Below, in pieces: positions 10,174 to 39,675 of a DNA stretch of 39,675 bases. The position numbers and the translations under genes were made by a program. Each line of letters opens with the position of its first letter. The stretch's first letter is position 1. This stretch comes from a virus, in IMG/VR virus record IMGVR_UViG_3300037200_000151, positions 1 through 39,675 of that record; one strand, written 5' to 3'. The notes below the pieces were generated by a model, which saw only the letters and a list, made by a program, of their open reading frames with translations, did not search any database and had not been told where the DNA came from.

Positions 10174-11028
10174 TCAGGGTTTTATGAAACCAAAAGCCGG
10201 TCTCGGCACCCTGACACTCCTATAGTTTTGACAGTTGGCGTTGACTCCCCACGCAAGATACTGAAGGGCATCATGAATGTGGGAGTAGATGTTTTTTATC
10301 GGGGACTGGCTCGTTTGCTCAATTTCGGCGGCTTTCTCGGGATATCTATAGCCCCCATCGAACCCCTTCGTGAGCACTGGGCATTCATTGATGTTGACCT
10401 GAAAGCCTGGATTTCCCCGGTACATCCTGCAAAGAAAGCTATCGACGGCTCCCCGTCGCGGTTCCCAGTTCACGGGTCCAGGGATCGGAAGAAAGCCCTT
10501 CGAATTCAGAATGCTCGCGCATGAATCCTCGTTCGTGTCTTTTCTGAAGTTCCCCGATGGATCGATAAAACAAAGCCAGTCTCGCCGGCGATCGTTCCAT
10601 TGTGGGAAAATCTGCTTCAGCTCGTGGACAACGTAGGTCGAGAAACGCTCGCACCCCATATTCACCGAGGTGAACTCTTTTAGAATATTGAGAGTACCCT
10701 CAACATACTGTCCAACCAAAGCAGCAGCACACAAACCAAAATCCCACCCAATAAGTAGGGGAAGGCCCAACTGAGGCTCCAGCGTAAAAGCCGACGCATG
10801 AATCTTCTTGTTCCAATCGCCATAAACCGGCATCCCCTGGTAGGTGACCCATTCGAGTTCATATTCCTGTTGAAACTTCCTTCGAGGCATCCCTGATTTT
10901 GCCGCATCCTTCCATTCTACAGATCTTTTCTCTTCATCGGCGGAATAATGAAGTTCAAAAACCGTGAAATGGTTTTTATCGTTCTCCCAGATTCGGACGC
11001 CCTGCATTGGTCTCTTTACTTCAGGCAT
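10174..11028 (-). CDS. terL: terminase large subunit, nuclease domain (separate ORF)
   Basis: This 284-residue ORF carries the RNase H-like nuclease half of TerL. Visible features are the first acidic motif LIGWDFG (Asp about 96), CFIDPSGNFR (Asp about 156), and the C-terminal HIHDALQYLAWG motif (Asp about 253), spaced as in TerL nucleases that cut concatemers at packaging start and end. The ATPase half is in the upstream ORF, which ends in TGA at 11023-11021. The two overlap by 8 bases, and this ORF is in the +1 frame relative to the ATPase ORF. ATG 11028 is the natural start, but the frame is open further upstream to about 11325. It could be expressed by coupled reinitiation or by +1 frameshifting at GCC-TGA. 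A sequencing error is also possible. Confidence 0.8.
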   Translation of the reverse strand: MPEVKRPMQGVRIWENDKNHFTVFELHYSADEEKRSVEWKDAAKSGMPRRKFQQEYELEWVTYQGMPVYGDWNKKIHASAFTLEPQLGLPLLIGWDFGLCAAALVGQYVEGTLNILKEFTSVNMGCERFSTYVVHELKQIFPQWNDRRRDWLCFIDPSGNFRKDTNEDSCASILNSKGFLPIPGPVNWEPRRGAVDSFLCRMYRGNPGFQVNINECPVLTKGFDGGYRYPEKAAEIEQTSQSPIKNIYSHIHDALQYLAWGVNANCQNYRSVRVPRPAFGFIKP

Positions 11029-11692
11029 CGCCGACCTCTTCAAAGGGCTCATCCAGCCTGTCAAAAACAAGGCGCTGAAAGAATCCTGGAGCGGGGCTTG
11101 AGATTCCGATAAACTTTCCCCCTTCGATTCCTTTCTTTCCTTCAATCGTCGGGAACGAAGCGGAGAACATCTGCTCGGCGTCATCCCAGAAGGCCATTTC
11201 ATCGGCGAGAATTCCTGAGAATGTAAATTGCCTGAGCTGATCGGCACCCGATGCAAATCCCGTAATCTGGGATGAGATTTCAGGGAACGTGAGCTTGCCG
11301 AAGATGGGTTCCCAGTTTGGAACAATGTCTTTTGGAATTACATCGTGGTTCATGTTTTCCAAGATGAATATCGCCCTCTTGATAAGCTCGTCTGAGTCGG
11401 TTTCCTTCTTGGAAACAAAGGCCCAGTTTCTCCCAGCGTGGAACATGGAGTCCCAAAGGGATAGCGCAATGCAGGTCCATGACATCGACATCCGTCTGGA
11501 CTTCGGAACAAGAATCAGACGCTTGCGCTGCCAGACGCGAACGAAGAGCTTCAAATATTCTCGATGAGTCGGGAAGTCCTTAATGGGGTTAGACCTATCG
11601 ACCTGATCTAAAGTCCTGCAGCCCTTCAAGAACTCCCATGGGTCATTTCTGATCTGACGGACTCGTTCGAGAGTGTCTCGATCCTGAATCAT
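11021..11692 (-). CDS. terL: terminase large subunit, ATPase domain (separate ORF)
   Basis: This 223-residue ORF carries the packaging ATPase half of TerL. It has a Walker A-like loop VPKSRRMSMSW (about residues 62-72), in the non-classical form common in phage TerL. Walker B is ILADEMAFW (about 161-169), with the catalytic Glu after Asp. A coupling motif GISSP (about 196-200) follows. It terminates at EEVGDA just where the inter-domain linker normally leads into the nuclease domain, which is encoded in the next ORF in a different frame. ATG 11692 overlaps the preceding stop (TGATG). Together the two ORFs make about 507 residues, a normal full TerL length. Confidence 0.85.
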   Translation of the reverse strand: MIQDRDTLERVRQIRNDPWEFLKGCRTLDQVDRSNPIKDFPTHREYLKLFVRVWQRKRLILVPKSRRMSMSWTCIALSLWDSMFHAGRNWAFVSKKETDSDELIKRAIFILENMNHDVIPKDIVPNWEPIFGKLTFPEISSQITGFASGADQLRQFTFSGILADEMAFWDDAEQMFSASFPTIEGKKGIEGGKFIGISSPAPGFFQRLVFDRLDEPFEEVGDA

Positions 11693-12114
11693 CAAATCAT
11701 CGAGGGGGGTTTTTTAAACGGCCTCTTTTTATTCGGCATTGTTCCAGCGGCTCCGATTCCAGAATCAATCTTCATTGCAGGCTTCTCGGGATCGCGAACG
11801 CCGAACTCAGAGAACGGCACCTTGACGCTGCTCGATTCGGAGGGCGAAGCCATGGAGGCAGAATATGAGGTCGGTCCCGGTTCTTCCGAGGGATCAATCT
11901 TCGGATTGCCAGAGCTTCCGGCGCTTGCCATTGGACTCCAGGTTGTTTCTCCGGGTTCGTCTGACATCGGAAGTTTGGGATTGCCGTTCTCCTTCGGCAT
12001 AGCCTCTACTCCCGTCCGGACCACCGGAGACGGTTTCGCGCCCTCGATTTCCCGATTCGTGAAGGCTTCGCTGCCGCCCATTCCGTTCTTGACCTGTTGC
12101 TTTACTGATCTCAT
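11692..12114 (-). CDS. disordered Pro/Ser/Glu-rich protein before terL
   Basis: This is a 140-residue protein of low complexity, rich in Pro, Ser, Gly and Glu, with no predicted folded core. A repeat-like pair appears as GETTWSPMASAGSSGNPKIDPSEEPG and GPTSYSASMASPSESS. The C-terminus is basic (NKKRPFKKPPSM). ATG 12114 follows GGGAGGAT, a good Shine-Dalgarno, and its TGA overlaps the terL ATPase start. It is probably translated as part of the terminase operon. The function is unknown. Disorder suggests a flexible partner-binding protein. Confidence 0.6.
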   Translation of the reverse strand: MRSVKQQVKNGMGGSEAFTNREIEGAKPSPVVRTGVEAMPKENGNPKLPMSDEPGETTWSPMASAGSSGNPKIDPSEEPGPTSYSASMASPSESSSVKVPFSEFGVRDPEKPAMKIDSGIGAAGTMPNKKRPFKKPPSMI

Positions 12115-12140: not shown

Positions 12141-14492
12141 CTATTGTTTCATTTCTTCGATAATGATGACCCCAGAACCAGATGCGCCCCCAGTTGAGAT
12201 TGTTCCGCCCACTCCTGCAACGCTGGCGCCCACTACATATGGATATGAGGCCGCAACGGATGTAATAAAACCTTCAAAATAAGCTCCGCTTCCGCCGCCG
12301 CCCGCTGCACTGTTTGCTGCATTTCCGCTACCGCCTCCGCCGCCTGCACCAGTATTGGCACCCCCAGCGCCACCAGTTCCACCTGAACCATAACCACCAG
12401 CTCCAGCGCCTCCCAAGGGGCCTTCTCCGCCAGCGCCTCCTTCAGCATTAACAACGTTTGGAGACGTGCCGCCCGGATCACCGACTAAATTTTTCAAAAT
12501 TACGACGTTTGCCGGACTGTTGGTTAGCGTGCTACCGCCAGTTCCACCCGATAATCCATTTCCGCCGCCGCCACCGCCGCCTGATCCGATTAGATTGGCT
12601 CCAAAGAACGATGGATTTCCGTTATTGCCAACCCCGGTCGTCGAGCCCCCTCCTGACCCACCACTTCCGACGACGATGACCCTCAAATATAAATTCGTCC
12701 CAGTTGGAGTATAGGTCGCCGTCGCAAGGGTAGCCGAAAAGGTGATTGATGAAGTTCCCGAACCCGAGGAACGCGTCAGGGTTGATCCTGACGTTGCGCC
12801 CGTTCCGCTCATGAAGAGAACCTGACCCGATTGAGCACTCAGCGCTCCTTGCACGGTGTAGGTGTTGCTGTTGTTCGTGTATGTGTCGCCCACTGCGCAG
12901 GTCGTGCTCGTTGAGATCGTGAACAGCCAACCTGTTTGAATGCCGGTTGACGTCAGAAGTTTTCCTGTCGGAACGCTAAGAGAAACGGCTGGCCCAGTCG
13001 GTCCCGTGGCTCCCGTCGGTCCAGTCGCGCCCGTTGCTCCGGCTGCTCCAGCGGCACCTGTTGCACCCGTGGCGCCGACTGCTCCCGTTGCCCCAGTTAA
13101 GCCCGTAGGACCCGTTGCGCCGGTCGCCCCAGTGGGGCCAGTAGCTCCAGTTGCGCCTGTTGCTCCGGAAACCCCCGCTGACCATGTGCCATCTCCTCGC
13201 CAGAAAGTAGAGGAACTGGCCGAAGTCCCGGAATTCAAATTCCCTACTGGAAGATTTCCAGAAACATCCGTCCCCAAAGCAACGGCTCCATAGGTTGGGG
13301 CGCCAGAAGCATTTCCATGAAGAACCGTTGTTGTGGTTCCAAGAGAACCCAATGCGGTTGGAGATGCTCCTGATCCACCTCCCAAAATGATTGCTTGGTT
13401 AGTGAGCAATGCACTTGATGACATTGCGGAGGTGCTTGAGAAATACGGGATGCCTCCTGAGGTTCCGCTAGTGAGGGAGGTCCCACCATGGGACACGGAA
13501 AGAGTTGGCGAGGAAACTAATCCATAGTTAGAAAGAGCAGTTCCGATGTCGCCCGTTTGTTGAGTGACAGGAGTGGCTCCAAACCAGGCTTGCTTATTTC
13601 CAGTTTGAACTTGCCACATGGTATTGTTCGAACCATCTAACGCGCTATATCCCCCTGCATAGTCGGTAACTAAGGCAGCGTTCGTCCCGTTTTGAAAACT
13701 GTAAACACTAGAAATAACTTTTGAGGTTGTGAGAATTCCGCCAGTGTCATTTAAGCCATCTTCCCCATCGAAAACCCATGAGCCAATTTGAGCGCTGTAA
13801 TTACTCACGTCTAAAGCGAGATCACTGCCGTCCCCCACGATTCCAAGACTAGCTGAACCACTATAACCGTGCACCGCGACCTGGTTACTAGCGTTCAAAG
13901 TGTCTGTGTAAATATTTCCACCGGAATCTGATAGAACATCTCCCCCATCGAAAGACCAGCCTCCGAAATAAGCGCTACCATTTCCATTGATTGTCCAGGT
14001 TGCAGAGTTTGGGCTAAGAACAGGATTCGTGGTCCCATCATTTTCCCCTGTGATAGAAAGATTATTTGAGCCAACGCCAAAAATTGCATTCCCGGCTGAA
14101 TCGTCTAGCGTATTATTCAAGGTCTTCACGCTTCCGTTGTAGGATACAGAGAGTGACGGTGTAGATGAGCTGATTCCTTGAGAGAACACATCCAAAGGAT
14201 CGGTCATGTTCGCTAAGCCGTTTATAATCACATTATTGGTAACAGCTAAGGCACCCGGATCAGTGAGCGTTGTGCCGTCCCAGTCTCCGAAGCCAGCGAT
14301 ATTTCCTGAATTATTATAAAGAACGTTTCCGCTGGAACCCAAACTTCCGCTGATGAAACAAGTCGTTCCATCCTGAAGGCAAATGCCTCCCTGTAAAAGA
14401 GTCGCGATGTTGTTTGCGCCCCAAATAAGAGGAGCTGCCGAGTTTGCTATCGTCGAAAAGAAAATTGCGAGAGTGAAGAGAATTTTCTTCAT
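12141..14492 (-). CDS. collagen-like, glycine-rich fibre/adhesin with N-terminal signal peptide
   Basis: The protein has 783 residues. It begins with a canonical Sec signal peptide: MKK, a hydrophobic core [13 protein letters not shown], and a likely cleavage site NSA-A near residue 19. Next come beta-rich Asn/Ser/Gly repeats ([16 protein letters not shown] modules), then a collagen-like GAT/GPT Gly-X-Y tract (about residues 440-505). The C-terminus is a polyglycine domain with long GGG runs, ending in [11 protein letters not shown]. Such Gly-rich C-terminal domains form receptor-binding tips of phage adhesins (T2/S16 gp38-like and related fibre domains). A signal peptide is unexpected for a virion fibre assembled in the cytoplasm. 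The gene could instead be a secreted surface protein, or the peptide could be a relic of a bacterial origin. The start is ATG 14492 behind GGAGGG. Confidence 0.75.
12991..13170 (-). repeat. collagen-like Gly-X-Y coding repeat
   Basis: Within the fibre gene, 9-base-type units encoding Gly-Ala-Thr and Gly-Pro-Thr are repeated about 20 times, with a few Gly-Leu-Thr, Gly-Ala-Val and Gly-Ala-Ala variants. Such tracts form trimeric collagen-like stalks in phage fibres and are prone to length change by recombination. Confidence 0.85.
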
Positions 14493-23349: not shown

Positions 23350-23690
23350 TCCAACTCCGCAAGCTTTTTATAGACTGAATCGAGGGTTTCTTGTGCCCTC
23401 GCTCCTAGGAATATATTGCTTTGATGATCTCCATCAGCAAGCCTAATTTCCATCATAGAATAACTTTCCAAAGCCTCAATCGCCTCCCGCATTGCCTCAA
23501 TGAGCTTTAATGCTTCATCCGGAGGAAAGAGTGCGTAGTGACGCAAGCCCGGTTCACGACAATCCATTTCAGCGGTTCGTGCCATCTTCTCCAGGCGCGA
23601 CAGGGTTTCGGTGAGGTTAGACATTAGATCATCTACAGAATGATTAAAAAAGTAGGAGCAAGAAATGGCTTTGGTTTTCGGCGTGGTCAT
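23346..23690 (-). CDS. small helical hypothetical protein
   Basis: This 114-residue protein is mostly helical and charged (DDLMSNLTETLSRLEKMARTAE, DEALKLIEAMREAIEALESY). The later part contains ADGDHQSNIFLGARAQETLDSVYKKLAELE. It has no membrane segment. Both ends overlap neighbours by four bases, so it is translationally coupled. Similar helical proteins are common in phage accessory operons. I assign no function. Confidence 0.6.
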   Translation of the reverse strand: MTTPKTKAISCSYFFNHSVDDLMSNLTETLSRLEKMARTAEMDCREPGLRHYALFPPDEALKLIEAMREAIEALESYSMMEIRLADGDHQSNIFLGARAQETLDSVYKKLAELE

Positions 23691-23902
23691 TCGTTAGCCT
23701 CCTCAACCTCTTCACGAGAGTATAAAAACTCATCCAACTGAACTTCATATTTTGAAAGCTTCAATTGCATCACTCCCTTAATCGGGGTTACTAAGCATCC
23801 AATCGATTGAACACCATTGTTCCAAATTCCAAAGGCATTTATCGCATCCCAATACCCGCAAAGGTATGCATGGGTTTCAGGGGGTAATTTATCTGACTTC
23901 AT
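23687..23902 (-). CDS. small hypothetical protein
   Basis: The 71-residue protein starts at ATG 23902. The open frame extends upstream to 24109, but that part lies wholly within the preceding gene in another frame. The sequence is MKSDKLPPETHAYLCGYWDAINAFGIW with an acidic end (REEVEEANE). It overlaps its upstream neighbour by 14 bases and its downstream neighbour by 4. The function is not recognised. Confidence 0.6.
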   Translation of the reverse strand: MKSDKLPPETHAYLCGYWDAINAFGIWNNGVQSIGCLVTPIKGVMQLKLSKYEVQLDEFLYSREEVEEANE

Positions 23903-24116
23903 TTTCTTCCTCCGATGGAAACGCGGCAAGAGCTTCTTTGAGCGGACCGGAAAGCATCCCGCACCTATCGCGCTCCCACTCCAAAGCAGGACGCGCGTGC
24001 AACAAAGCCCAGCGAGCCAAAAGAAATACGTCGTCCAAAACATCTTCTCTCCATGGGGTGCCTTTAAAATGTTCTCTAGTGGCTTGGTGAAGGCGTTCCA
24101 ATTCCCCAATCGTCAT
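23889..24116 (-). CDS. small helical hypothetical protein
   Basis: The 75-residue protein (MTIGELERLHQATREHFKG ... EALAAFPSEEENEVR) is helical, with Arg/His/Leu-rich segments and an acidic C-terminus. ATG 24116 overlaps the previous stop by four bases. It is part of a tightly packed run of small genes between the glycosyltransferase and the control region. No family is recognised. Confidence 0.6.
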   Translation of the reverse strand: MTIGELERLHQATREHFKGTPWREDVLDDVFLLARWALLHARPALEWERDRCGMLSGPLKEALAAFPSEEENEVR

Positions 24117-24334
24117 TTACATTCCTCCATAGGCTTGTCGATTTCTTTGAGTGCATCGTGAGCCGTGAATAGATCACTCATTGTTCCATGTGGGTAAGCC
24201 CTAATTTCTAATAGCGCTTCTCTTGCGATCCTAAAACGGCGGATGATCTCTTGGATTTTTGAAGGATAAATCTCCATCCAATGCTTCCTCTCGGCAAGCT
24301 TCTCAAGCTGGTCCAGTTCTTCAAGAAACGTCAC
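24113..24334 (-). CDS. small helical hypothetical protein
   Basis: The 73-residue protein is read from GTG 24334, which overlaps the upstream stop as GTGA and follows GAGGAAG. An upstream GTG at 24352 is open but would overlap the previous gene more. The sequence VTFLEELDQLEKLAERKHWM ... DLFTAHDALKEIDKPMEECK is helical and charged. The function is unknown. Confidence 0.6.
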   Translation of the reverse strand: MTFLEELDQLEKLAERKHWMEIYPSKIQEIIRRFRIAREALLEIRAYPHGTMSDLFTAHDALKEIDKPMEECK

Positions 24335-25340: not shown

Positions 25341-25580
25341 TCAGCGGCCAGCTTCTCGGACGACGTTCCGAAGCCCCAGCCAGTGTTTGGCTTCAACAAC
25401 GGAGGCGATTTTATCCAGGCAGCACTTCTTGAATTTGATCCCGGATCCGCACCAGCATTGATGATTCCGAGGGAAGCGGGAAAGGGGGTTCCACTTCATT
25501 CCTTCGGGCAATACTCGCCCGGCCCCTGCCTGAGATCGCAGCTTTCTGGCCCGTCGTCTGAAAAGGTTTCCCCACCCCAT
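25341..25580 (-). CDS. SEC-C zinc-binding motif protein
   Basis: The 79-residue protein contains NHQCWCGSGIKFKKCCLDK (about residues 39-57), a clear SEC-C motif (C-x-C-G-S-G-x3-K-x2-C-C) that binds zinc. The N-terminal half is very basic (FRRRARKLRSQ). SEC-C domains occur at the SecA C-terminus and in many stand-alone proteins, and suggest protein or nucleic-acid contact here. It is the first gene of the leftward block, adjacent to the control region, so it is probably expressed early. ATG 25580 directly follows a T-run. Confidence 0.7.
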   Translation of the reverse strand: MGWGNLFRRRARKLRSQAGAGRVLPEGMKWNPLSRFPRNHQCWCGSGIKFKKCCLDKIASVVEAKHWLGLRNVVREAGR

Positions 25581-25599
25581 AAAAAAGGCTTAGGCCGAA

Positions 25600-25640
25600 T
25601 ACGGTACTTTTGGCAAAAATAATTCGCAAATAGTACCGTA
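25600..25640. promoter_or_regulatory. operator-like inverted repeat TACGGTACT/AGTACCGTA
   Basis: Perfect 9-base arms at 25600-25608 and 25632-25640 are separated by 23 bases. A third partial copy, TTGGTACTGTAA, begins near 25718. The arms extend as TACGGTACTTTT and, on the other strand, TACGGTACTATT. Position just upstream of the leftward SEC-C gene suggests repressor or activator binding. Confidence 0.5.
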
Positions 25641-26104
25641 GCGGGTTAGGCCGATTTGTGGCAGATGCGTGGGAAGCTGTGACAAACTGGATTTGAATGA
25701 ATGAAAATTAGAAAATGTTGGTACTGTAAATCAGATGCCATTTTAACCCGTATACCTATAACACGGCGTGTAGAACCTCAAACTGCGTGAAATGGGGGGG
25801 AGGGACGTACGCAGCCAGCAGCAGGCTCGGCCACGGGGGTAGGGGGTCGAACTTTTCCCCGCCCTTTTTTCCCCTAATGTCCTAATAGTATCAACAACCT
25901 GCAATCAACAACCTAATCTGAATGCGTATAACTTGCCTTGGCCCTCCTTTGCCGCGGCGGTATCCTCATAGGTTGTACGTTGCAGGTCCCGTGCCGATGC
26001 GAGGACGCGTTTAAATGCCATTCCACGCCTGAAAGGTGTCTAAGGTTTGCTCATGTGTCGATATAACGATAGACAGTGGAAGGTTGACGGTGAGCCGATC
26101 CCTT

Positions 26105-26258
26105 CAACCTGCAACCTGCAACCTTCAAATAATGGCATATGAGCAGCCAAAGGCATGCGGGATAGAGCTCGAGCTCATGAGTGTCGCAGACCTTCAACCT
26201 ACTTTAAATGGCATTTGAGGCGTGCGGTGGACCTACAACCTACGCGGACGGGCATTTG
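26105..26258 (+). repeat. three composite elements CAACCT-N9-GGCAT
   Basis: CAACCT at 26119, 26195 and 26236 is followed in each case by GGCAT exactly 15 bases later (26134, 26210, 26251), then A/T-TGA. Two extra CAACCT copies (26105, 26112) precede the first unit. A degenerate fourth unit may begin at 25909. The conserved two-part spacing indicates recognition by one protein. Candidate roles are iterons of an origin or activator sites for the rightward operon. Confidence 0.6.
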
Positions 26259-26298
26259 ACGAGACTTTGGGCCATTTACATGCAACGATGTTGTCATA

Positions 26299-26667
26299 AT
26301 GGGAGATTTGAGAATCAAGGCGTTAGCGATGGACGTCACACGCGACGTATCCCAGCATTGGGAACGGTTTAAAGAGCCAATGAGCTTAACATCGGTGCAG
26401 TGTCGCTATTTGAGGCGTTTGGAGAGGGTTTTTGGAGTAGGGAATGGCTTCTCATGGTTTATCGATCAATTGAAAAAGGCGCGAGTTCTTCATTCAATTG
26501 AGACGCGCACGGGGAAGCGCTGGATGGTGCCGATTGAGGCTTGGAATGGCTTAGATTCAGCGGCACGGCTTAAGGTGGACGAATGGTGTCAGACCGCGGT
26601 TGATCCCCGCTATGAGCGAAGCGTGCAGCTTAGAGAAGAGCGTCTAAAGAATCGGCAGCCTGTCTAA
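26299..26667 (+). CDS. hypothetical protein, first gene of rightward operon
   Basis: This 122-residue basic protein may contain a winged-helix-type segment: SLTSVQCRYLRRLERVFGVG, FSWFIDQLKKARVLHSIETRTGKRWMVPIEAW. A turn-rich end follows, with a basic C-terminal helix (YERSVQLREERLKNRQ). The family is not recognised. Its position, about 40 bp after the composite repeats and first in the operon, would suit a regulator or origin-binding protein, but this is inference. No good RBS precedes ATG 26299. An in-frame ATG at 26329 is the alternative. Confidence 0.6.
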   Translation: MGDLRIKALAMDVTRDVSQHWERFKEPMSLTSVQCRYLRRLERVFGVGNGFSWFIDQLKKARVLHSIETRTGKRWMVPIEAWNGLDSAARLKVDEWCQTAVDPRYERSVQLREERLKNRQPV

Positions 26668-26728: not shown

Positions 26729-26737
26729 TTATCCACA
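26729..26737 (+). promoter_or_regulatory. DnaA box (TTATCCACA)
   Basis: A perfect consensus DnaA 9-mer lies in the 173-bp gap between the 26299 gene and the tiny membrane gene at 26841. A single box can occur by chance (another is inside a coding gene at 34621). Its non-coding location near the repeat array makes an origin role plausible. Confidence 0.3.
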
Positions 26738-30289: not shown

Positions 30290-30486
30290 GCGTATATACA
30301 AAACGTATTTACGCCAAAGTTCCGCTTTGGACAAAGTTCCTGCTACTCTTTAGGCGCACGAACCAAACCACGGGACAAACCGAGGGGACCGTCTGCACGA
30401 TTTACTGGAAGCACCTTTTTAAAAGGATCTACGTGTTAAAAGAAGAATTCAAACCGAAAGGAAACAGTCATGGACAACGAAAATAA
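30286..30486 (+). CDS. small basic hypothetical protein
   Basis: The 66-residue protein starts at ATG 30286, overlapping the exonuclease stop (ATGA). The sequence (MSVYTKRIYAKVPLWTKFLLLFRRTNQTTG ... YVLKEEFKPKG) is basic and aromatic. It overlaps the start of the next gene by 17 bases. It is inserted between exonuclease and annealing protein; the role is unknown. Confidence 0.55.
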   Translation: MSVYTKRIYAKVPLWTKFLLLFRRTNQTTGQTEGTVCTIYWKHLFKRIYVLKEEFKPKGNSHGQRK

Positions 30487-31612
30487 CCAACTACCACAAC
30501 GGTTCCAAGGCGATCACTTAGGCAATGCGCCGGCGATCATGCCAAAGGTGCCACAATCTGTTGAGTCTTCGCGGGCAATCGCTGAAGTTCAGGCGGCCGT
30601 GATCTCGGCTAAGAACTTTCCCCGCGATACTAATGCGGCCTTTGGGGCCGTCATTGAAGCCTGCAAGCGAAAGCGCGTGGCTGAGAATGCCATGTACGCT
30701 TATAAGCGCGGCGGAGCCATGGTCACGGGACCGTCTATCCGGATGGCTGAGATCCTTGCCCAAAACTACGGGAATCTGAGCTTCGGCATCGTGGAACTCG
30801 AACGCCGTCAAGGCGAAAGCCAAATGATGGCCTTTTGCCACGATCTCCAAAGCAATACCCGTCAAACGAGGGTCTTTGCCGTTCCTCATGCTAGAAGCTC
30901 CAAAGCCGCCGGTAGGGTTGAATTGACCGACGACCGCGACGTTTATGAGATGACAGCCAACCAAGGCGCCCGAAGACTTAGAGCCTGCATCCTTGGAATC
31001 ATCCCACCTGACTTCATTGACGGGGCCATTGAGCAGTGTGAGGCGACGTTAAAAGACGCCGACAAGAACGTGCCCATGGCGGATCGAATCAGGGGAATGC
31101 TTCAGGCTTTCAGCGAGCATGGAGTCAGCCAAGAGATGATCGAGAAGCGCCTGCAACACAAAGTCGACGCAATCAATGAGGCCGAACTTGTATCGCTTCG
31201 GAAGATTTACGGCTCAATCAAGGATGGGATTGCCTCGCGTGAAGAGTTCTTCTCGGTGAAGGAACAAGCATCGCAGCCCTCAAGCGTGAATGAAAGGCTT
31301 GCCGACATCAAAGTCCCTGAAGAAAAAACCGAAGTAAAAGAGCCCGAAAAATCGGCTCCAGTTGTCGAGGCTCCAAAGGCCGAAACGAAGGTCCCAAAGC
31401 CAAAAGCCAAACTTGAGCCAAAACCTGACCAGATTTCATACAAGTTCCCCGTGGGCCGGTATGAAGGGCAAGAGATCTCGACGATCTCGCTTGAGGACCT
31501 AAAGACGTATTTCTTCCAATTGAAGGGTCAGGCTAAGCTTGACGGCCCGAACGCTCATCGTGACGAGATGATCATGGCCATCGGTGACTTCATCGAGAAG
31601 GCGGCAAAATGA
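30470..31612 (+). CDS. conserved phage recombination protein, likely ssDNA-annealing
   Basis: This 380-residue protein starts at ATG 30470 behind GAAAGGAAACA. The conserved core includes AVISAKNFPRDTNAAFGAVIEACKR, YAYKRGGAMVTGPSIRMAEILAQNYGNL and TRQTRVFAVPHARSS. It ends with YEMTANQGARRLRACILGIIPPDFIDGA, a pattern seen in a widespread phage family encoded beside exonucleases. A charged Pro/Lys/Glu linker (about 265-325) leads to a C-terminal small domain (KFPVGRYEGQEISTISLEDLKTYFF). Single-strand annealing (RecT/Red-beta-like) is inferred from the exonuclease partner, since I see no proof of a RecT fold. Confidence 0.65.
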   Translation: MDNENNQLPQRFQGDHLGNAPAIMPKVPQSVESSRAIAEVQAAVISAKNFPRDTNAAFGAVIEACKRKRVAENAMYAYKRGGAMVTGPSIRMAEILAQNYGNLSFGIVELERRQGESQMMAFCHDLQSNTRQTRVFAVPHARSSKAAGRVELTDDRDVYEMTANQGARRLRACILGIIPPDFIDGAIEQCEATLKDADKNVPMADRIRGMLQAFSEHGVSQEMIEKRLQHKVDAINEAELVSLRKIYGSIKDGIASREEFFSVKEQASQPSSVNERLADIKVPEEKTEVKEPEKSAPVVEAPKAETKVPKPKAKLEPKPDQISYKFPVGRYEGQEISTISLEDLKTYFFQLKGQAKLDGPNAHRDEMIMAIGDFIEKAAK

Positions 31613-33560: not shown

Positions 33561-36095
33561 CTATTCTCCAGGGTTTTGCTCTATTTGATTGTCTGGGACT
33601 GGGTTTGGCACACTCGGGGGCTGACTTGCAAGAGCATCCATGTTTTGTTGACCATTAGAAGCTTCAGCAGCAGCATTAAGACTTTTATTCTTAAAGGCAG
33701 CCGCGAATGTTCTCGCTGAGGCAGGAACAAGAATCTTCGTGACGGCATTTCCAACGCCACGTTTGACTGTTGCCAGCGTTGAATTGTCGACCATGGCCTC
33801 ATAAATCCCCATTCCTTGGACGATATTTGAAATTTGCTCTTCATTTGCCGCTCCTTTGATAAGAGCGCCGACTCCGTTGTTAGCCACATAATTGGCAAAT
33901 TCAGGAGATCCCCTCACAAGACGGTAAAGATCGCGAGCACCCCGAACAGGAGACATGGCAAGCCCGACGAGCGCACCGACGGCTTGAGTAGTTTTATCTG
34001 GATTCTCTTTCCAAAAATCGCTGGTCTGAATCAGTTTTGCTTGATTGGCGATTCCTTTTAGCTGATTCAATTGAGATGGATCAGGAGCAAGCGCACCCAT
34101 CATTTCAGGTCCCCATTTCCTTGCGTCTATTTCTCTCATGAAAACCTGCGGATCAAAGACGGGTTTCGCTGGATCAATCGAAGCATCGATCGCGTTAGAT
34201 ATCCAAAGTGACCTGATCTGCTGCATCTGCGGAGAATCGGCTCCAAATATTTGCTGAATCTTCAAAAGAGAAGACGGCTTTCCAGGAGTCAAAATCATTT
34301 GAGCGATATTGTCAGCGGCTTGGGGATTTTGGAATGCTCCCCCCAATTCTCCGATCTGGTTCATTTTATCGCTATAATTTTTAAATGCCTGATTCCAACT
34401 ATCTTCCATTGGCGTGCCTTTTAAAGATTCTGTCAATGCAGAGGCTTGATCTGCTCGGAAGGAACGCTGAATAGATTTGAAATTATTTAAAATCGTTTCA
34501 TTGGCCTGTCTTCCTGGGCCATCAAACTGGGAAAGATCGGCGAAAAAGGTTGTGGCATCATAAAGATCTTGAAGGGGCAATCCTCCATTTACCTTTGTGG
34601 TGGCGGAGTAAATATTATATTTATCCACAAGCTGTTTCAAGACGTTTTGGCCAGTGGGAGAACCCCATGCAGAGGTTTGAGAAGCGGCAAGCTGAGTATT
34701 GAGCTGTTCGCCCTCCAGCCCATCAAGAGTTGCCGAGCCGTTACTCCCGTCTAAAACAAGTTTCAATTCTCCCGTGGTGGGATCCTCGACGGCTTTATCG
34801 CCAATTATTTTTCGAAGCTGTCCAAGACCATTGTCGATCGTGAAAGAATTTATTCCCTGTTTCTGGGCATTCGCGATAGCTGTTGATTTTGCAAGTCCAA
34901 CTCTCTGACCAAGCTGGTCTTCAAGCGAATCCATTCCATTTTTTATCGATTGCCCCACTGAATATGCGGTCACTTCTCCCATTTCTGGATCAGGCATTCG
35001 AAGGGACGTGTGGATTTGATCTATTGCTCCCCTAATTCCAGCAGCGGCTTCTTGACGATAAGAAAGTGAACTCTTTGCAAGATCACTCATGAAGGCCCCG
35101 ATCTGACTAACGGCTTCGCCGCCGACAGAAAAAGCAGCCCCAAGTCCAGCCGATTCCATGAAGTCTTTTTTGTAATTGTAGCCGGCGGCCTCTTGGACAC
35201 CTGCCGCATAGTTGGCCGCCGCTCGACTCATTGAAGAAGCGGCCCATGCTGCGCCCTCAATTCCAGCCGTGGCTCCCACAAGAGCAGGTCCAGGATTCAT
35301 TGTAGCGGCAGCTCCGGCAACGAACGGAGCGGCAGCCAAAGCAGCGGCTCCTCCTTCTGCGATATTTGGGACCATGGCGGCGAAATCAAGACCTGCGGGT
35401 GCCACGGGATTCCAAGGAGCTTGTTCGTTGTCTCTATAAAAAAACTGATTTCCATCGTACTTGGCATTGTTGAAGCCATACAGCTTTTGGAACATGGAAA
35501 GCTGGCCTTCCCGAGTCTTTGGGATGGCTCCAATTACACGATCAAGAAATGGAGCTGGCTTGTTTCCTAAACCATTGTCTTGCTGCACGGCTTCGGGATC
35601 ATTTGATAAGTCGCTTCTGAAGGCGGCCTCAGCCATGTCCATTTGGTTTTTTTCATCGGCTGCCTGGAGATGTTCAACTGGCGTATTGCTTTTAATTTGT
35701 GCGAGATTCGCATCGGCAGATTGCTGATATGAGGGATTGGTTTGAGCATCGGCGGCTGCTTGAACTGCTGGACTTCTTTGGGGAGGAGTAGAGGGATTGG
35801 CTGACTGATCATCCATCGTTCCATCGTCTCCTCCCTGATCGCCTGGTTGTGGTGACTGCGAAGGAGGAGGTTGAGATGAGTCTTGTCCTTGAGGGGCCAT
35901 GGAAGGAACTGTTGAACCAAGAGTAGGTTGAGGATTTCCCTGAGCCAATGGTTGGCCAGCGGCAAGCTGCGTATTTGCAAGGGGTTTAAATTTCCCAAGA
36001 ACATTCTGGAGGGTTTGGCCCATGGTTCCTCCCGGAATTGGATTCCCAAGGTCTTGAGGTTGAGGATTCGCTGGAATATTGAAGCCTGCCATCAT
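33561..36095 (-). CDS. internal virion/ejection protein, large (gp16/gp15-like role)
   Basis: The 844-residue protein has a Pro/Gln/Ser-rich N-terminal 130 residues. A long helical body includes a hydrophobic Ala/Gly-rich region (AALAAAPFVAGAAATMNPGPALVGATAG, about 240-280) that could enter the host membrane. The C-terminus is helical and ends in a polar tail. It has no enzymatic motif; the transglycosylase is a separate downstream gene. Position and composition match the largest ejection protein of podoviruses, which forms a trans-envelope channel. Two adjacent ATG codons serve as start, overlapping the preceding stop. Confidence 0.6.
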   Translation of the reverse strand: MMAGFNIPANPQPQDLGNPIPGGTMGQTLQNVLGKFKPLANTQLAAGQPLAQGNPQPTLGSTVPSMAPQGQDSSQPPPSQSPQPGDQGGDDGTMDDQSANPSTPPQRSPAVQAAADAQTNPSYQQSADANLAQIKSNTPVEHLQAADEKNQMDMAEAAFRSDLSNDPEAVQQDNGLGNKPAPFLDRVIGAIPKTREGQLSMFQKLYGFNNAKYDGNQFFYRDNEQAPWNPVAPAGLDFAAMVPNIAEGGAAALAAAPFVAGAAATMNPGPALVGATAGIEGAAWAASSMSRAAANYAAGVQEAAGYNYKKDFMESAGLGAAFSVGGEAVSQIGAFMSDLAKSSLSYRQEAAAGIRGAIDQIHTSLRMPDPEMGEVTAYSVGQSIKNGMDSLEDQLGQRVGLAKSTAIANAQKQGINSFTIDNGLGQLRKIIGDKAVEDPTTGELKLVLDGSNGSATLDGLEGEQLNTQLAASQTSAWGSPTGQNVLKQLVDKYNIYSATTKVNGGLPLQDLYDATTFFADLSQFDGPGRQANETILNNFKSIQRSFRADQASALTESLKGTPMEDSWNQAFKNYSDKMNQIGELGGAFQNPQAADNIAQMILTPGKPSSLLKIQQIFGADSPQMQQIRSLWISNAIDASIDPAKPVFDPQVFMREIDARKWGPEMMGALAPDPSQLNQLKGIANQAKLIQTSDFWKENPDKTTQAVGALVGLAMSPVRGARDLYRLVRGSPEFANYVANNGVGALIKGAANEEQISNIVQGMGIYEAMVDNSTLATVKRGVGNAVTKILVPASARTFAAAFKNKSLNAAAEASNGQQNMDALASQPPSVPNPVPDNQIEQNPGE

Positions 36096-38522: not shown

Positions 38523-38918
38523 TTAAGCTTCCTCCCTTAAGAGTATCTTAAGCCCATTTTCCCGACCCACAAACCCATGCTTCTCGTACCGGGCCTGAAG
38601 TTTTGAATTGTTCGATGACGCAGTCACCAGTTTAAAGCCACATTGCCTAGAAAGCTCTAAAAGCCCCGTCAAAAGACAGTCGAGTGCCTGATCCCGCACT
38701 ACCGGATCGGTCGTGGGGTCACTCATGACACCCCCTATAAAAGCGAATTTGGCGTCAGTCCTAAAGAGAAAGCCTGAGCAGATGCGTCGGCCATCATGGA
38801 CGATGAGCATTCCACATTCGGGGTAGTATTGAGGATCCGGAAGGCCGAGCCCACGGGCTGAGGCCCAAAGAACAATGTGAGGAAAATCCTCAGCCTCAAT
38901 ATATTTCTTGATCTCCAT
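38523..38918 (-). CDS. GNAT-fold protein (paralogue 2)
   Basis: This 131-residue protein has acetyltransferase-type order. CGMLIVHDGRRICSGFLF forms the first strands, KFAFIGGVMSDP is the central strand, DQALDCLLTGLLELSRQCGFKLVTASS gives the helix and next strand, and LQARYEKHGFVGRENGLKILL is the typical C-terminal 'l...yek.GF' signature. The acetyl-CoA loop (R/Q-x-x-G-x-G/A) is not conserved. It closely parallels the upstream gene, so the two arose by duplication. T7 gp13-type core proteins have been compared with this fold. It may be a structural rather than enzymatic protein. Confidence 0.65.
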   Translation of the reverse strand: MEIKKYIEAEDFPHIVLWASARGLGLPDPQYYPECGMLIVHDGRRICSGFLFRTDAKFAFIGGVMSDPTTDPVVRDQALDCLLTGLLELSRQCGFKLVTASSNNSKLQARYEKHGFVGRENGLKILLREEA

Positions 38919-39321: not shown

Positions 39322-39675
39322 AACTCAACGACCTCCAGCATATTGATACCGCTGGCAGTCCCGTTCACGGCGCTTTGATTTCCGGCGAGTTTGGCAAATG
39401 AAGGAAAGGCAACAGACCCTAGGCCATCCGTCCCCGTCGCACCGATCGGCTGCATATAAACAACGGGAGATCCCGAAAGGCTTATATAAAGCGCTTGAAG
39501 CGAATATTCAGTCGATCCTTCGGCCCCCGAATCAAGGAAAACGTCGGAAATGTTACAACCGGCAAGAACTCCTGAAGACTCAATGAATTTCGCATAGGTC
39601 CTGACAACCGTTGATCCGCGAAGAACTTGGATCAGGACTTCAGCTTCTCCCGAACTATTGATTAGTGAGAAGTTT
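39318..39675 (-). CDS. tail fibre protein, C-terminal part (continues from position 1)
   Basis: The frame is open from the window end to TGA 39320-39318 and has no start inside. Translated from 39670 it reads FSLINSSGEAEVLIQVLRGS ... GNQSAVNGTASGINMLEVVEL. This joins in frame to the VLVFVN at position 2-4 if the terminal 5 bases (AGTTT) are counted once. The combined domain alternates short beta strands in the way C-terminal phage fibre domains do. If the ends are not joined, this is simply a fibre fragment of unknown start. The stop overlaps the GTG of the GNAT gene. Confidence 0.75.
   Translation of the reverse strand, partial: NFSLINSSGEAEVLIQVLRGSTVVRTYAKFIESSGVLAGCNISDVFLDSGAEGSTEYSLQALYISLSGSPVVYMQPIGATGTDGLGSVAFPSFAKLAGNQSAVNGTASGINMLEVVEL

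Follow-up and report, generated by a model that had tools for sequence, protein, structure and literature searches.

Lambdoid phages control their early genes from divergent promoters with clustered repressor and activator sites, while iteron origins of the lambda ori type carry several direct repeats of about 20–30 bases in a non-coding stretch. In the Omega/ParB system of pSM19035, arrays of the 7-base unit WATCACW overlap promoters (PMC9499535). Beyond these Omega heptads, nothing relevant was found in the literature on phage elements built from two blocks at a fixed spacing. Like the lambdoid early control regions, the locus described here presents clustered short near-palindromic sites between divergent operons, beside the gene for a small DNA-binding-type protein, but it differs from them in combining two box types at a fixed spacing, and no repressor gene or integrase was recognised.

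The window, that is the whole stretch of 39,675 bases that was analysed, is one viral record with a podophage-like gene set, in which the portal, capsid, split terminase and tail genes are encoded on the minus strand, while a rightward early operon codes for an exonuclease VIII family protein, a phrog_3657 protein and a RuvC-type resolvase. A non-coding gap of 718 bases (25581-26298) divides the leftward operon, the first gene of which encodes a SEC-C motif protein (25341-25580, minus strand), from the rightward operon. The 5-base sequence AGTTT is present at both ends of the record (1-5 and 39671-39675). Overlapping the ends there restores a tail gene in frame from its two halves, and the molecule, of about 39,670 bases, is therefore probably circular and complete. 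The gene for the large terminase (10174-11695, minus strand) is split into the overlapping frames 11021-11695 and 10174-11325, both of which match successive parts of one gene in relatives; the frameshift near 11.05-11.1 kb may be genuine or a sequencing error. Adjoining the terminase/portal block, a protein with a collagen-like G-x-y stretch is encoded at 12141-14492 on the minus strand. The phrog_3657 protein (30470-31612, plus strand), encoded next to the exonuclease VIII family gene, shares 44-50% identity with proteins from phages of Acinetobacter, Bordetella, Vibrio and Blautia; its position makes it a candidate for annealing or recombination. A possible operator or hairpin is found shortly before the leftward SEC-C gene, at 25600-25640, where arms of 18 bases (TACGGTACT and AGTACCGTA) form an inverted repeat around a loop of 5 bases. 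Near the candidate replication genes (15.8-17.6 kb), no clear iterons were found.

The composite motif CAACCT-N9-GGCAT, which the first-pass annotation had reported three times in the non-coding region ahead of the rightward operon, is indeed present as exact copies at 26119-26138, 26195-26214 and 26236-26255, all on the plus strand and between the genes that start leftward at 25580 and rightward at 26299. GGCAT starts 15 bases past the start of CAACCT and is followed by W-TGA in all three units, again as described. The conserved block is longer than had been noticed, namely RACCTNCAACCT-N9-GGCATWTGA, and the third unit ends at 26259, one base beyond the range originally given. In their extended form the plus-strand units comprise AACCTGCAACCTTCAAATAATGGCATATGA at 26113-26142, which consists of a doublet of a first box, the spacer of nine bases and a second box, GACCTTCAACCTACTTTAAATGGCATTTGA at 26189-26218 and GACCTACAACCTACGCGGACGGGCATTTGA at 26230-26259.

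When the 30-mers starting at 26113, 26189 and 26230 are aligned, 20 of the 30 columns are invariant; dinucleotide shuffling of the intergenic region, repeated 300 times, gave no more than 15. CAACCT-N9-GGCAT-W-TGA is found at only these three positions in the whole record, even with one mismatch allowed, and the other 10 matches to CAACCT-N9-GGCAT with up to two mismatches in the window are at chance level. In a comparison of all non-coding stretches of 350 bases or more in the window and 17 relatives, 55 in number, the cluster is by far the strongest three-copy element (z 8.9, the next being 4.0). The distance from unit to unit is irregular (76 and 41 bases), and in the alignment the 9-base spacer is identical at 2 to 4 of 9 positions in pairwise comparison, which is about random. 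This preservation of the blocks next to a diverged spacer makes the blocks look selected and argues against a decaying or recent duplication. The cluster is a real and apparently selected element of the DNA level, and its three units are almost certainly sites to which protein binds.

A closer description of the region is that of two separable boxes, each clustered far beyond chance and each present on both strands. Box 1 consists of ACCT in tandem 7-base steps (ACCTNCA), and every composite unit carries a doublet of it. The additional CAACCT half-sites noted earlier in both orientations were recovered, with seven copies on the plus and two on the minus strand of the gap (9 observed versus 0.41 expected), while AATGGCAT was found four times (0.05 expected) and pairs of ACCT seven bases apart equally four times (0.009 expected). 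The most extended array, identified with Tandem Repeats Finder at 26101-26128 on the plus strand, holds four 7-base copies of CCTGCAA with three consecutive CAACCT and runs into unit 1. Further upstream, at 25895-25915 on the plus strand, two CAACCT 14 bases apart, equivalent to two 7-base steps, form a box 1 pair without box 2; an inverted copy of this pair, ACCTGCAACGTACAACCTA on the minus strand at 25969-25987, is 84% complementary to 25897-25915, and a single CAACCT lies on the minus strand at 26081-26086. The possible degenerate composite unit suggested at 25909 is not supported, as the bases 15 downstream, GCGTATAAC, are unlike GGCATWTGA; the positions 25895 and 25909 thus constitute a site of box 1 only.

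Box 2 is the imperfect palindrome AATGGCATNTGA, of which three exact copies are present in the gap versus 0.0003 expected, two of them within units and the third at 25731 on the minus strand, with near copies at 26011 (minus strand) and in unit 3. Its core is an odd palindrome that is perfect in unit 2 (AAATG-G-CATTT), while 4/5 positions pair in the two minus-strand copies, 3/5 in unit 1 and 2/5 in unit 3. The two minus-strand copies stand alone, one, AATGGCATCTGA at 25731-25742, facing the leftward operon and the other, AATGGCATTTAA at 26011-26022, having one mismatch. The first-pass annotation had concluded from the constant spacing that a single protein binds. Since each box also occurs without the other, the fixed spacing rather suggests two cooperating DNA-binding modules in contact with each other, which need not belong to one protein.

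Clustered sequence-specific sites thus occupy the gap between divergent operons, and it is operator-like that either box is found on either strand and also without the other. We therefore consider it probable, with some reservation, that the units and boxes constitute a multi-site operator/activator cluster of a divergent early control region. From the arrangement of the sites we infer protein binding, the involvement of two modules and an effect on transcription as follows. One DNA-binding protein or module would line up on the 7-base ACCTNCA steps of box 1, and a second protein or module, probably a dimer, would sit on the near-palindrome AATGGCATWT of box 2. At the three places with a fixed distance the bound proteins would touch and bind cooperatively, and cooperative binding would determine how active the rightward early (recombination) operon is, and perhaps the leftward operon, too. 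Several observations temper the assignment. In the gap no convincing sigma-70-type promoter was recognised, the best candidates ranking 28th to 431st genome-wide, and it was counted against the operator reading that the three units also coincide with the ends of open reading frames. To our knowledge, the box sequences are unlike those of described operators; the element is new by sequence and ordinary by kind.

The same features were weighed against other functions. A replication origin with iterons, at which an initiator protein would bind the repeated units and open the DNA beside them, shares with the lambda ori type several direct repeats of the same orientation in a non-coding stretch, and a cumulative GC-skew minimum at 25578, a perfect DnaA box, TTATCCACA, at 26729 and an AT-rich stretch at 25681-25780 seem to point in this direction. 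The skew, proposed beforehand as a check for an origin, nevertheless follows the coding strand and not the arm at fourfold-degenerate sites, and as minus-strand genes on both arms are equal in this respect (0.097 versus 0.109, p 0.77), the minimum is explained by gene orientation and does not constitute an origin signal. The DnaA box stands alone 0.5 kb downstream, the only other one, at 34621, is located inside a gene, no cluster as in a lambda-type origin is formed, and the AT-rich stretch, at a distance of 350-500 bases, is nothing unusual in this genome. Irregular spacing and boxes that are separable on both strands are, moreover, less typical for iterons, and no initiator gene was recognised near the site or elsewhere among the proteins tested against Pfam and PHROGs. 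An origin is consequently unlikely; of the initial proposal of a novel iteron/origin or activator site, the clustered putative binding region before the rightward operon is retained, while the origin part gained no positive evidence. Even less probable is a partition- or silencing-type array, in which an Omega-like ribbon-helix-helix protein would cover the 7-base steps and regulate the promoters on either side. Non-palindromic 7-base units in tandem and in both orientations ahead of genes are indeed common to the locus and to pSM19035, but 2 to 4 contiguous steps of ACCTNCA are found here as opposed to 7 to 10 of WATCACW there, the additional box 2 is left unexplained, and Pfam returned no ribbon-helix-helix family match among the small early proteins tested.

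On the other hand, the coincidence with open reading frames might indicate that the units encode the ends of three stacked short frames, for example leader peptides involved in stalling or coupling, with the shared C-terminus [DN]LQP[ST]xxGI-stop. In the frame of the TGA the units read NLQPSNNGI, DLQPTLNGI and DLQPTRTGI, each followed by the stop, the degenerate bases in the blocks (CTN, ATW) are wobble bases, and in the first frame an ATG at 26053 is preceded by AAGG at a distance of seven bases. Yet the wobble base is the same in all three units for each of the codons CAA (Gln), CCT (Pro) and GGC (Gly) though the spacer codons have diverged, and the variable columns fall on third positions in 5/10 cases, which is not significant (about 0.17 by a hypergeometric estimate). 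Coding is impossible for the copies of box 1 that lie outside the units and for minus-strand box 2, which is immediately preceded by an in-frame stop at 25742, a period of 7 is no codon period, and neither the second nor the third frame has a clear ribosome-binding site at its start. Coding is hence very unlikely, and we regard as just as improbable the combined version, in which stacked overlapping leader-peptide frames would control the early operon and the same DNA would double as binding sites. Finally, the position in a long leader and the plus orientation of all three units would be compatible with an RNA-level element of the rightward operon, such as a nut- or put-like antitermination site or an attenuator. 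However, neither for the units nor for the 211-base stretch as a whole were hairpins predicted beyond what shuffled sequences give (z -0.06, -1.08, 1.31 and 0.61), which favours a DNA-level element, no Rfam match was obtained and the boxes are also present on the opposite strand, leaving an RNA-level function highly improbable.

With respect to the binding protein presumed by the operator/activator reading, the nearest candidate binder or autoregulator is the product of the first gene of the rightward operon (26299-26667, plus strand), a predicted winged-helix protein. Its model, built from four sequences, has a winged-helix look (pLDDT 74), and the structure matches are mostly winged-helix domains over residues 1-84, the best with Z 8.1 over 73 residues, whereby Z values near 8 are common and Foldseek gave weak E-values for the match, none better than 0.05. 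The start at 26299 is without an evident ribosome-binding site, while the ATG at 26329, which follows AAGG at a distance of about eight bases, fits the homologues better and looks like the better start. An extended -10-like sequence, TGTCATAAT, is located at 26292-26300. Remote relatives of the protein, 21-25% identical over the alignment, were found in three phages, in two of which (G010 and G017) other rightward genes precede the homologous gene, and the motif is absent from all three.

A search for the motif in relatives that keep the flanking genes, suggested by the first-pass annotation, did not recover it; those with the 26299 gene are remote in this protein and have mostly other early genes. 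The capsid protein identified 65 loci, nearly all at 55-78% identity, the early genes of which are mostly unrelated to those of this phage. In 29 relatives found via the capsid protein only scattered two-mismatch matches to the motif occur, and no comparable three-copy element is present in the gaps of relatives. Searches of viral contigs with the two-unit pattern, of phage records for DNA similarity to the region and of genome contigs for relatives via the phrog_3657 protein were all negative, and viral-contig relatives sought via the 26299 protein, the phrog_3657 protein and the portal were none or remote. The strict 29-base pattern gave two matches in viral contigs, which coincide at one position within a terminase gene, and six in genome contigs, as against about seven that we estimate to arise by chance; both sets were judged to be chance matches. 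As the relatives are remote and their early genes mostly different, absence of the motif from them is not a fair refutation, and the evidence on conservation is limited by collections without close relatives of this phage.

Clusters of a different sequence are nevertheless found in equivalent positions. In G010, the corresponding gap between divergent operons (23587-24290) contains TGTAAT nine times on both strands, a density reached in 0/500 shuffles, and includes at 24213 the odd palindrome with a one-base centre TGTAAT-G-ATTACA (TGTAATGATTACA); a near copy of this palindrome is located at about 24250-24262. Location, a 6-mer on both strands and the one-base-centre odd palindrome are thus common to G010 and the present phage, whereas the sequence is unrelated and G010 is without two-block units. 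A weaker cluster is present in G011 (11/500 shuffles), while the early gaps of G002 and G003 show no comparable cluster. Two observations concern these records themselves: G011 has a long non-coding gap at 38489-40000 with repeated words of the CGCCAACAAACG and ATTAGCCG type, and G002, though classed as linear, is probably a complete circle, as its ends (1-128 and 38758-38885) overlap by about 128 bases. The clusters in the gaps of relatives indicate that site clusters in early gaps occur in the group with lineage-specific sequences.

If the operator/activator reading holds true, the locus would represent a small system, consisting of one 0.7 kb gap and a few early proteins, that forces two DNA-binding modules into register, and this among phages whose capsid proteins are 55-78% identical while their early control regions have almost no relationship. 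It would also show a fast replacement of early control sites while the structural genes stay the same.
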